Below, piece after piece: positions 2,781 to 40,443 of a DNA stretch of 64,000 bases (position 1 is the first letter of the stretch; each line of letters opens with the position of its first letter). The notes beneath the pieces are model-generated. The model did no database searches and was not told the origin of the DNA. It saw only the letters and a list, made by a program, of their open reading frames with translations. Origin of the DNA: Burkholderiales bacterium (lineage in GTDB: Bacteria; Pseudomonadota; Gammaproteobacteria; Burkholderiales; Burkholderiaceae_C); NCBI GenBank assembly GCA_016185015.1, contig JACPOI010000015.1:124001-188000 (forward strand). The letters run 5' to 3'. The position numbers and the translations under genes are program-made.

Positions 2781-3756
2781 ACCCCTCGTGTCGCAAGCGT
2801 CGCAGCGCAGCCTGCTCGACCACGCACTGGGCTGGCGCTGGGCGCTGCCGCTCTTCGCGCTGCTGCTGGCCCTGCCGCTGATCACGCCGCTGATCGGCGG
2901 CGACTTCTACCTCGGGCTGGCTGCGCGCATCCTGATCTTCGCGCTGGCGGCCACCAGCCTCAACCTCGTCCTGGGTTTCGGCGGTCTGGTGAGCTTCGGT
3001 CACGCGGCCTTCGTGGGCGTGGGCGCCTACACGGCCGGGGTGCTGCTGCAATCCGGCATCACGTCCGCCTGGGTCCTCTGGCCTGCCGCCATGCTCGTGT
3101 CCGCGCTGTTTGCTGCCGTGATCGGTGCCATCAGCCTGCGCACGCGCGGCGTCTACTTCATCATGATCACGCTGGCCTTCGCGCAGATGCTCTATTACCT
3201 GGCCCTCTCCACCAAGGCCTATGGCGGTGACGACGGCCTCTCGCTCGCCGCACGCGGCACGCTGGGCGGTGGCCTGGAGCTGGCCAACGAACGCACCTTC
3301 TACTGGACCACGCTGGCCCTGGTGACACTGGCCCTGCTCTTCGTCTGGCGCCTGCTCAACGCGCGCTTCGGCCACGCCCTGCAGGCCATGCGCGAGAACG
3401 AGGCACGCATGGAGGCTGTGGGTTTTGCCGTCTACGGCCACCGGCTCACAGCCTTTGTCATCGCCGGGGCGCTGGCGGGCCTGGCCGGCGCGCTGCTGGC
3501 CAGCCTGGGTGGTTTCGTCAGCCCCTCCATGATGCAGTGGGGCCAGTCCGGCCTGCTGATGGTCATGGTCATCCTGGGCGGCGTGGGCCACCTGTGGGGC
3601 GGGGTGATCGGCGCCGTGGTCTTCCTGCTGCTCGAAGAGGTGCTGAGCCACTACACCATCTACTGGCAGTTTGCCCTGGGGGCCGCCTTGCTGGCCGTGG
3701 TGCTTGCTGCGCCCAACGGCTTGATGAGCCTGTTCAAGCGCAAGGAGCGGGTATGA
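2773..3756 (+). CDS. Branched-chain amino acid ABC transporter permease (LivM-type)
   Basis: LNLVLGFGGLVSFGHAAFVGVGAYTAG motif; overlaps livH. Confidence 0.92.
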   Translation: MAEPLVSQASQRSLLDHALGWRWALPLFALLLALPLITPLIGGDFYLGLAARILIFALAATSLNLVLGFGGLVSFGHAAFVGVGAYTAGVLLQSGITSAWVLWPAAMLVSALFAAVIGAISLRTRGVYFIMITLAFAQMLYYLALSTKAYGGDDGLSLAARGTLGGGLELANERTFYWTTLALVTLALLFVWRLLNARFGHALQAMRENEARMEAVGFAVYGHRLTAFVIAGALAGLAGALLASLGGFVSPSMMQWGQSGLLMVMVILGGVGHLWGGVIGAVVFLLLEEVLSHYTIYWQFALGAALLAVVLAAPNGLMSLFKRKERV

Positions 3757-5790: not shown

Positions 5791-5910
5791 CCGCCCTCTG
5801 GCAAGGGTGCGGCTTTACGTGCCATGAATCCCCGCTTCACCTAGGGAAAACACCGATGTGGCCTAATTCTTGCGAATCAAGGCCATGTCTTGATCCCCAG
5901 GAAACCCGCC

Positions 5911-6327
5911 ATGCACCCTCAACCCCTAGCGATTTCACGTCCGGCCCCGCGCCGGCTGGGGCTGCTGCGCGTGCTGGCCTTCCTGTTGCTGGCGGGCGGC
6001 TTGCTGTGGTCCTGGACCCAGGCCCACGCCACGCCGCCGCCCATGGTGGGCAGTGAGCTGGCTGGCTTCAACCTGCTGCCAGCCGATGTCGAAGCCGTGC
6101 TGGACAGCGCGGTCACGCCGGGTGCCGAGGTGGTCTGTCGCAAGCCGGCGCCCGTGAAGACCACGCCGGTCGAGCGCGTGCTCAATGAGGTGGCGGACCT
6201 GGAGGTCCTGCCCCGCCAGCCGGTGTGGCAACTGGCCGCACAGTCCGTGCCGATGCAGGGCCCCCAGCCCGCGCTCCCGCAGACCGAGCCGCAGCCCCTG
6301 CTGCGCCCGCCAGCCCGCCTGGGCTGA
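5911..6327 (+). CDS. Hypothetical protein with N-terminal TM/signal segment
   Basis: Single ORF upstream of the RND operon, MHPQPLAISRPAPRRLGLLRVLAFLLLAGGLLWSW...; Pro-rich C-terminus. Confidence 0.5.
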   Translation: MHPQPLAISRPAPRRLGLLRVLAFLLLAGGLLWSWTQAHATPPPMVGSELAGFNLLPADVEAVLDSAVTPGAEVVCRKPAPVKTTPVERVLNEVADLEVLPRQPVWQLAAQSVPMQGPQPALPQTEPQPLLRPPARLG

Positions 6328-37800: not shown

Positions 37801-37900
37801 TGACTCAGGGCACCCGTGGAACCGGCTTTGCCGGGCCGCTGGGTGCGCCCCCTTGAGGGGGGATGCGAGCCACACGCAGTGGGCGAGAGTCGGGGGGATT
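37801..37900. repeat. Short intergenic hairpin-bearing repeat, copy A
   Basis: Shares CAGGGC...CCCCCTT..GGGGGG...CACACGCAGTGG with copy B at 40937-41016; internal hairpins CCGGCTTTGCCGG and CCCCCTTGAGGGGG. Confidence 0.55.
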
Positions 37901-38786
37901 AATGCTCTTCGGCAGGAGTGTTGGGGATCGCGCGTTCGCGCAGGAAGGTGGCGGCCACGCCGCTGCCGACGATGAGCGTGATGCCCAGCCAGCCGTAAAG
38001 CGGGATCTGGTCGCCGAAGAGCACCAGACTGTAGAGCGAAGCGAAGACGATGCCCGAATACTGCAGGCTGGCCACCACCAGGGTATGGCCGCGGCTGTAG
38101 GCGCGTGTCATGCACCACTGGCCCAGCGAGGCCAGCACGCCGATGGGCAGCAGCCAGACCGCGGCCTGCCAGTGGATCTGCTCGGGTGGGGTGAAGCCGG
38201 TGAACAGGATGCCCACCAGGCCGGTGACCGCGGTGCCGACGGCGAAGTAGAAGACCGTGCGGCCCTCGGGCTCACCCGCGCGGGCCAGGGCGGTGACCTG
38301 CAGATAGGCGAGTGAGGCACTCATGCCCGAGAGCAGGCCGATCAGGCCAGCGAAGAGCTGGTTCTGGTCGATGGTGGGGCGCAGCGTGAGCACCACGCCG
38401 GCAAAGCCCAGCAGCACGGTGGCCAGCAGCGGCCCCTGGCGCTCGGTCTTGCCATAGAGGATGGCGCCGCCCACGATGAAGGCCGAGACCCAGATGCCAC
38501 TCATGTAGTTCAGCGTCATGGCCGTGGCCAGCGGCAGCCAGGCGATGGCATAGAACCAGGCCGTCAGCGAGGCCCCACCGATGATGCTGCGCCAGGCGTG
38601 CATATAGGGCACGGGGGTCTTGAGCCCGATGCCGCGGCCGCGCAGGATCAGGGCCAGGAAGGCGATGCTGATGAGGCCGCGGTAGAAGACCAGCTCGAAG
38701 GTACTGAAAGACGCCGAGGCGTACTTCACCGCCACGCCCATGGTGGCGAAGAAGAAGGCGCCTAGGACCATCCAGAGGGCTTGCAT
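37899..38786 (-). CDS. DMT/EamA-family transporter
   Basis: ALWMVLGAFFFATMGVAVKYASASFSTFELVFYRGLISIAFLALI, multi-TM. Confidence 0.9.
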   Translation of the reverse strand: MQALWMVLGAFFFATMGVAVKYASASFSTFELVFYRGLISIAFLALILRGRGIGLKTPVPYMHAWRSIIGGASLTAWFYAIAWLPLATAMTLNYMSGIWVSAFIVGGAILYGKTERQGPLLATVLLGFAGVVLTLRPTIDQNQLFAGLIGLLSGMSASLAYLQVTALARAGEPEGRTVFYFAVGTAVTGLVGILFTGFTPPEQIHWQAAVWLLPIGVLASLGQWCMTRAYSRGHTLVVASLQYSGIVFASLYSLVLFGDQIPLYGWLGITLIVGSGVAATFLRERAIPNTPAEEH

Positions 38787-38809: not shown

Positions 38810-39282
38810 CTCTGTCTCTGGCGAGGCGTTTAACAACCCCCCAATCATCCCCCCGCCCTTCTTTGCCCCCCGCCGGGGGCAAAGAAGGGAGCCTGGATTT
38901 TGCTTCTGGTGTTTTGGAAAGGCTTCTACGGCACGGACCGACGCCACCGCTTCCGGTCAGCCTAGATTGCTGGCCTGCGGTCGTAGTAAATGGTGCAGCT
39001 TTGTTATGCCAACGACGGCCGCCGCTGTGCGGTCGGCCGTGGGCGAGACATGTTTCGTTGCTGGCCGGCGCAGCCGCCAGCGTTGGCGTACCAAGGCCGA
39101 GCCGTCGACTACGACCGTTGGCTCGCCAGTCGAGGCCAGCGAGGATGACCGCGACCTCTCGCGTCCTAGAAGCGTAGCCGGCGCGAAGTAACCAAATCCA
39201 GGCCCCCCTCTCTACCCCGGCGGGGGTAGAGAGGGGCGGGGGGATGAGAGGGGGGAAAGAAAACGCCCCGTCAGGGAAAGAG
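38810..39282. repeat. ~470-bp imperfect fold-back element (long inverted repeat) with nested terminal hairpins
   Basis: Terminal 49 nt arms align ungapped with 38/49 matches by hand; hairpins at 38856-38889 and 39205-39236; symmetry continues inward to a near-palindrome around 39046-39050. Confidence 0.8.
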
Positions 39283-39321
39283 ACCACGTGAATAAAGGTC
39301 AGTGACGAGGGGCTCGAAAAA

Positions 39322-40443
39322 TCACAAGGCCATCTGCTTCCGATACCACTCATGAAAATGCTGCATGCCATCCTCCATGGGGCTCTGGTACGGACCGACT
39401 TCGTTGTCGCCGCGCTCGAACAGGGCCCGACGCCCCGCGTCCATGCGCTCGCCGATCTCGTCGTCCTCGATGCAGGTTTCCATGTAGGCGGCCTGCTGGG
39501 CTGCGACGAACTCGCGCTCAAAAGCGGTGATCTCTTCGGGGTAGTAGAACTCCACCATGTTGAGCGTCTTGCCGGGGCTGACGGGGTGCAGGGTGGAGAC
39601 GGTCAGCACGTGCGGGTACCACTCGACCATGATGTGCGGGTAGTAGGTCAGCCAGATCGCGCCGCGCTCGGGCAGCTGGCCGTTGCGGTATTTCAGCAGG
39701 GCGTCGTGCCAGCGCTGGTAGACCAGCGAGCCCGGGCGCTGGAAGGCGCTGGACACGCCCACGGTCTGTACCGAGTAGTTGTCCTTGAACTCCCAGTTCA
39801 GGTCCTCGCAGGTCACGAAGTGGCCCAGGCCCGGGTGGAAGGGGCCGACGTGGTAGTCCTCCAGATAGACCTCGATGAAGGTCTTCCAGTTGTAGTTGCA
39901 CTCGTGCAGCTCCACGCGGTCCAGCGTGAAGCCGGTGAAGTCGAGTTGCGCGCGCGGGCCCATGCCGGCCAGGTCGGCGGCGATGTCGCGGCCATTGTCT
40001 TCAAAGAGCAGGCCGTTCCACTCCTGCAGCTTGTAGTTGTTCAGGTTCAGGCAGGGGTCGTGCGCAAAGTGCGGCGCGCCGATCAGCTGACCCTCGGGCG
40101 AATAGGTCCATCGATGGATGGGGCAGACGATGTTGCCGCCGGCGCTGCCGGGAGCGGTGGCCTGGAGCGAGCCGCGGCCCTTGAGCATGACGGCCTGGCG
40201 GTGGCGGCAGACGTTGGAGACCAGCGACACCCCTTCGGGCGTGCGCACCAGGGCCCGCCCTTCCTTTTCCTGGGGGAGGGCGTAGTAGTCGCCGACTTCG
40301 GGGACGCTCGCGGCATGGCCTACATAACGCGGCCCGCGCCCGAAAATGAGTGCCATCTCGCGCTGGAACAGCGCTTCGTCGAAGTAGCTTGAAACTGGTA
40401 GTTGGCTGTGCGCCTGCTGCAGTTGAAGACTTAAATCAGACAT
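39322..40443 (-). CDS. Rieske-type aromatic ring-hydroxylating oxygenase alpha subunit
   Basis: Rieske ligands VCRHRQ and CPIHRWTY; mononuclear Fe motif EDYHVGPFHPGLGHF. Confidence 0.92.
   Translation of the reverse strand: MSDLSLQLQQAHSQLPVSSYFDEALFQREMALIFGRGPRYVGHAASVPEVGDYYALPQEKEGRALVRTPEGVSLVSNVCRHRQAVMLKGRGSLQATAPGSAGGNIVCPIHRWTYSPEGQLIGAPHFAHDPCLNLNNYKLQEWNGLLFEDNGRDIAADLAGMGPRAQLDFTGFTLDRVELHECNYNWKTFIEVYLEDYHVGPFHPGLGHFVTCEDLNWEFKDNYSVQTVGVSSAFQRPGSLVYQRWHDALLKYRNGQLPERGAIWLTYYPHIMVEWYPHVLTVSTLHPVSPGKTLNMVEFYYPEEITAFEREFVAAQQAAYMETCIEDDEIGERMDAGRRALFERGDNEVGPYQSPMEDGMQHFHEWYRKQMAL

Follow-up and report, generated by a model that had tools for sequence, protein, structure and literature searches.

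A palindromic, hairpin-ended intergenic element of Comamonadaceae, probably an old MITE-like fold-back

The palindrome between the eamA and Rieske genes of the window (the whole 64,000-nt stretch of DNA analysed here) is one member of a family dispersed through Comamonadaceae. The members are intergenic, are inserted into short gaps and compact operons, and have inverted arms with a C-rich hairpin module. We consider it probable that they are old, non-autonomous, MITE-like fold-back elements, whose hairpin ends would be recognised by a candidate enzyme acting in trans and which would later have been mixed by recombination.

Architecture of the window copy

The element occupies 38810–39283 (474 bp, made up of arms and core, with approximate outer borders and no assigned strand), as delimited by its alignment to its own reverse complement, by homologous copies and by the empty orthologous site in other congeners. 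Two minus-strand genes serve as context only: upstream a Rieske-type oxygenase-like protein (39322–40443, 373 aa), with 38 nt between its stop codon and the element, and downstream eamA, an EamA-like transporter (37899–38786, 295 aa). The initial annotation had described a fold-back with imperfect outer arms, and a base-by-base check of 38810–38858 against the reverse complement of 39234–39282 returned the same 38 matches over 49 positions. The weaker symmetry that it had followed inward extends over the entire 474 bp, which match their own reverse complement throughout with 65% identity (blastn E 2e-45). It had also proposed a comparison with dinucleotide shuffles. The folded plus strand reached −301.5 kcal/mol against −203.5 ± 6.6 for the shuffles (z −14.9), none of the 100 being as stable, and the minus-strand fold was 13.6 standard deviations more stable than its shuffles.

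The left arm (plus strand) consists of an outer border, TCTCTGGCGAGGCGTTTAACAA (38810–38836; some other family members have a TTTTGTAA-type border), a C-run, spacer and second C-run, CCCCCCAATCATCCCCCCG (38837–38855), whose outer segment varies jointly with the stem type, and a terminal hairpin with a perfect 15-bp stem and the loop CGCC (38856–38889). On the right (minus strand) are a terminal hairpin with a perfect 14-bp stem and the loop GGCG (39205–39236), a G-run, spacer and G-run, CGGGGGGATGAGAGGGGGG (39237–39255), and the outer border of the inverted arm (39256–39283). Both perfect hairpins, with their 4-nt loops, are thus as first reported. Further inward, the left-arm motifs GCCTGGATTT ... 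GGCTTCTACGG (38891–38931, plus strand) pair with the right-arm motifs TAGAAGCGTAGCC ... AAATCCAGG (39167–39201, minus strand), and the almost invariant GGTCGTAGT (38979–38987) pairs with ACTACGACC (39108–39116), both on the plus strand. The core, also on the plus strand, has a first central hairpin, GACGGCCGCCGCTGTGCGGTCGGCCGT (39014–39040), with the strongest covariation of the core (helix 7), the near-palindrome CGAGACATGTTTCG at the centre (39044–39057), present as claimed and carrying a variable insert in other copies, and a second central hairpin, GCTGGCCGGCGCAGCCGCCAGC (39060–39081), found in another genus too.

The open reading frames across the element appear accidental, in agreement with the earlier view that no plausible protein is encoded. 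A scan of the window copy predicted no promoter and no intrinsic terminator (the stem has no immediate U-tract), and Rfam covariance models gave no match at two thresholds. No other element was found in the window by a fixed-pattern search for the loop end of the right hairpin.

Dispersal, empty sites and passenger genes

BLAST with the element gave 29 matches in its own genome, which is not a copy number as both arms of one copy can match both strands; matches occurred in 14 of the 41 genomes searched, all 14 in the same genus. This Hylemonella-group genome holds ∼10 copies, each intergenic and at a site common to close relatives. For the family search we used a single-arm covariance model (R1). 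It detected inverted pairs ∼300 nt apart, amounting to ∼10 elements in each of the near-complete genomes G015 and G018, and matched 15 of 26 genomes of the genus. The sites are orthologous, with 5-kb stretches around the copies aligning over most of their length at 76–92% identity across genomes. Within the taxonomic family, R1 matched 24 of 401 genomes, from 15 of the 141 genera sampled, so the dispersed homologues on which the initial annotation had made its reading depend do exist. In a fuller scan, G068 had 47 arm matches, and G192 and G162 had 24 each. Across the class, 369 sampled genomes, searched with stricter filters and including few members of the element's own family, gave no match outside its own genome, and none was obtained in a plasmid search. 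Among the matches listed in a search for solo copies by exact hairpin pattern, all lay within elements already found.

Family members are nearly full-length palindromes of ∼350–550 bases, present at ∼1–25 copies per genome. Palindromes this large seem to break assemblies: N runs or homopolymer G/C interrupt them at L007, L018, L021, L062 and L065, and copy numbers are therefore probably underestimated. The shared end module comprises a TTTTGTAA-type border (in several genera), a C-run, a short spacer, a C-run, a hairpin with a loop that is usually CGCC, and AGC. The bodies in other genera are largely unrelated in sequence, yet 60–83% self-complementary in nearly all compared copies. In G068 the elements lie at different loci, for example next to a gene resembling that of GroEL or between genes resembling those of pyruvate kinase and aldolase (gene names are our own reading of the sequences), but the ends and the central GCTGGCGCGCAGCCGCCAGC are shared. 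As many genera have this palindromic layout with bodies that differ, the relic of a one-off inverted duplication, the second option of the initial annotation, fails as an account.

Two further features were seen beside or within elements. At several loci, and in one further genus, a terminal hairpin contains a second unit of ∼75 nt with two small hairpins, GCACGCGCGGTCGCGCGTGC ... GCAACGGCnnnGCCGTTGC (L042:928–1122, L048:2113–2304, L107, L106, L032 at both ends, L113, L103 and L222); the unit may be an extended, alternative form of the end or an element nested in it. A gene for a group II intron-type reverse transcriptase is located ∼0.8 kb from one element on contig C122 of G068 (L088/L095), with no sign of a functional link.

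Comparison of filled and empty sites showed that the element is an insertion. At four loci, two of them inside operons, gaps of −4 to ∼43 nt become ∼355–614 nt, which supplies the empty orthologues that the initial annotation had proposed to look for. Between the Rieske gene and eamA, empty sites measure 30–42 nt (G041, G004, G019 and G022) and intact filled ones ∼530–610 nt; G006, G003 and G007 have 156–175 nt of unrelated sequence there, and G002 and G024 another apparent coding stretch. The iorA and iorB genes overlap by 4 nt (G006, G011) or are separated by 14–18 nt (G016, G005) when empty and by 502–576 nt when filled. The corresponding values are 5 nt (G016, G005, G020, G023) and ∼355–549 nt for addB–addA, and 9–43 nt and 528–614 nt for ispH–serS. 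Filled sites start immediately after the stop codon of the upstream gene. We saw no target-site duplication at these insertions, where the gaps span just a few nt and the borders are blurred; of the marks of mobility named in the initial annotation, empty sites are thus present and target-site duplications were not seen.

Occupancy is patchy, addBA being filled in two separated groups, and this could reflect loss, replacement by transfer or repeated insertion. The Hylemonella copies keep their positions. Copies from the same genome are at most 90–94% identical, and recent movement is therefore not demonstrated. In gaps free of the element, other GC-rich hairpin sequences of 90–170 nt are often found (L138, L139 and L144 at iorAB; L165, L170 and L173 at addBA; L063 at eamA), so that repeats of different kinds seem to share these positions.

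At least two long copies, from other genera, hold passenger genes between inverted repeats of 167–181 bp (82–84%). The cargo of L221 (G044) is two ORFs (221 and 374 aa) in which no domain was recognised, and that of L226 (G192) a 160-aa ORF and an ABC-ATPase/dual-specificity-phosphatase fusion, the only cargo recognisable by Pfam, NCBIfam and PADLOC. There is no transposase in either cargo or in any copy examined. These genes may have been inserted into a pre-existing element. An apparent third long copy, on contig C185 of G068, proved to be an ordinary element plus a solo arm, and an autonomous copy in Hylemonella was rejected since the arms there pair at ∼300-nt spacing. No autonomous parent or IS with the same ends was found in the Hylemonella genomes, nor by an imperfect scan that covered twenty more inward windows, each 10 kb at most. 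In G192, the right flank of L228 and the left flank of L230 share a sequence that resembles the start of an IS3-type transposase gene and abuts the C-run end. Outside the ends of L226 the two flanks (3050–3150 and 5860–5960) remain inverted copies of each other, nearly perfectly over ∼100 bp, which looks like outward growth of the palindrome; matched per-copy flanks were also seen in L232.

Dispersed homologues at sites that differ between genera, filled/empty polymorphism, terminal inverted repeats, short length and lack of a transposase gene together make the MITE-like fold-back the best supported of the three options first offered. We propose that an enzyme encoded elsewhere would recognise the folded terminal hairpin and C-run rather than the body, and would move any sequence lying between two inverted ends. 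Recognition of the ends alone would account for bodies that differ between genera, and the short palindromes would be two ends joined without cargo. It is possible, if rather unlikely, that the family represents a separate class of hairpin-ended palindromic transposons of Comamonadaceae, in which the C-rich module is recognised by its structure in trans, any cargo travels and the palindromic bodies are a by-product of the mechanism.

Paired changes in the stems and competing explanations

The initial annotation had claimed compensated stem changes from the two different hairpins of a single copy, and this was strongly borne out across the family. In an alignment of 30 copies we scored a structure that combines hairpins formed locally at the termini, two hairpins at the centre and long-range helices that are conserved; 96.6% of cells are paired and 24 pairs have double changes. 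Double-changed cells number 151; shuffling gave 54 and sliding no more than 33, and neither control removes relatedness. The left hairpin accounts for 46 double-changed cells with no one-sided standard change. Orthologous stems at five loci showed 372 paired double changes against 82 expected from independent change, and 101 one-sided changes against 699 expected, counts in which genome pairs are not independent and which are inflated where stem lengths differ (14 versus 15 bp); in the '+' arm at eamA, where the listed stems are all 15 bp, 17 changes are double and none one-sided. Stem pairing is thus maintained via paired changes. Long-range pairing between the left and right terminal hairpins was also tried as the structure and rejected, being kept in 93.6–96.7% as against 97.9–99.3% for local pairing.

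The stems fall into a few types (e.g. TCTCTA, TTCTCTA, TCTCTG, TTTCCA, TTCCCA and TCTCCCG), each tending to occur with an outer C-run segment particular to it. Between orthologous copies the whole stem type may change, and identical types recur at many loci. This pattern suggests that end modules have been exchanged between copies, to which sorting of old subfamilies could contribute. Core orientation also differs between orthologues, at ispH–serS, at the second L009 site and at the parS-side locus of G004, as expected from recombination between inverted arms; an inverted core at the parS locus of G000 was ruled out by an orientation check. One conserved copy (L013, L025, L029, L039, L046) is flanked by a perfect or near-perfect parS-like site, TGTTTCACGTGAAACA, next to an rsmG/gidB-like gene. 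Under the fold-back reading, the Hylemonella copies would have remained in place while arms and copies recombined with one another.

The perfect terminal stems could be a mutational by-product of template switching during replication of short-loop hairpins, with no selection on structure, a possibility that we consider less likely than not. The short-loop hairpins are near perfect whereas the arms 300 nt apart match at ∼65%, and the left hairpin has almost no one-sided intermediates, as such a process would leave. Template switching does not, however, explain GGTCGTAG and CTACGACC, ∼130 nt apart and nearly invariant in sequence, and the switching of stem types together with the outer C-run segment, common to several loci, points to module exchange instead. 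It concerns the upkeep of the element and not its origin, and can coexist with the fold-back reading, in which selection or hairpin-templated repair would keep the ends folded. The paired hairpin substitutions at orthologous sites are a natural record that could separate these two.

The structure is clearly kept, and the structured RNA/DNA element, the third option of the initial annotation, may apply as a secondary role. In its full form, this explanation holds that read-through from upstream gives a hairpin that is cut or protein-bound and tunes the downstream gene, selection accounting for fixed sites and paired changes. The sites are indeed stable in many genomes, the paired changes are strong, and addBA and iorAB are compact operons holding copies, so that transcription has to cross the element to reach the downstream gene, barring an internal promoter; the window copy has neither a predicted promoter nor a predicted intrinsic terminator. 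Folding of the read-through RNA would give a hairpin of great stability, which a ribonuclease specific for double strands might cut. Correia elements are reported to be cleaved by RNase III (PMC10969869), and copies within operons could plausibly act post-transcriptionally in this way, the double-stranded transcript being cleaved. On the other hand, the body is symmetric and both core orientations are tolerated at one site, many congeners lack the element at the same site, Rfam gave no match, and there is no tie to gene function or orientation. By simple gene calls the ten G000 loci are seven tandem, two convergent and one divergent, with no obvious orientation preference. We therefore regard a functional RNA element as unlikely to be the main explanation.

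A two-way transcription barrier (Rho-dependent terminator or insulator) would be consistent with the base composition, as 38834–38870 is 62% C and 5% G and is mirrored on the opposite strand, so that from either side the incoming strand first runs through C-rich, G-poor sequence and then into a hairpin; Rho requires no U-tract. Such a barrier would, however, silence the downstream genes of addBA and iorAB, and convergent sites are not in excess, which makes it very unlikely. The least likely origin is a REPIN-like element moved by a RAYT (REP-associated tyrosine transposase): each element has two inverted hairpins and is non-autonomous, and each Hylemonella genome tested has one Y1_Tnp gene, but the hairpin base lacks a GTAG head and is flanked by C-run/G and AGCC, copy number is low, the 1.5-kb flanks of twelve Y1_Tnp genes contain no arm match, and G001, a genome without elements, has the gene as well.

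Relation to known elements

The family lies between housekeeping genes and has matches in 15 of the genera sampled, yet we found no description of it in the open-access literature searched. We place it provisionally as a variation on known MITE and mobile insertion cassette types, the MITE label being provisional because a target duplication and a parent element are unproven. Like bacterial MITEs (Correia, ERIC/RU and QMITE; PMC10969869), its members are short, non-coding, intergenic and multicopy, with terminal inverted repeats, a very stable fold and no transposase. Unlike them (PMC10969869), they are symmetric over the full length, their end hairpins covary locally, their bodies are replaced between genera, and they are GC-rich rather than AT-rich, with no target duplication or parent IS found.

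REPs and REPINs with RAYT transposases (PMC2817692, PMC3116915) are likewise intergenic inverted hairpin pairs moved in trans, a movement that we infer for the present family. They differ from it in the GTAG head and the associated rayt gene, both absent here; REPs are also short compared with 350–550 bp and, according to PMC2817692, usually exceed 100 copies, as against ∼1–25. The hairpins near both ends, a likely recognition feature, recall IS200/IS605-type elements as described in PMC6006769, a resemblance only; in our elements the inverted arms are long and every copy lacks a Y1 transposase gene. L221 and L226, and only these two, resemble mobile insertion cassettes (e.g. pAC3; PMC5444012) in having inverted ends that enclose passenger genes without a transposase. 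Unlike in those cassettes (PMC5444012), the present family ends in long arms that bear hairpins, and its copies commonly lack cargo.
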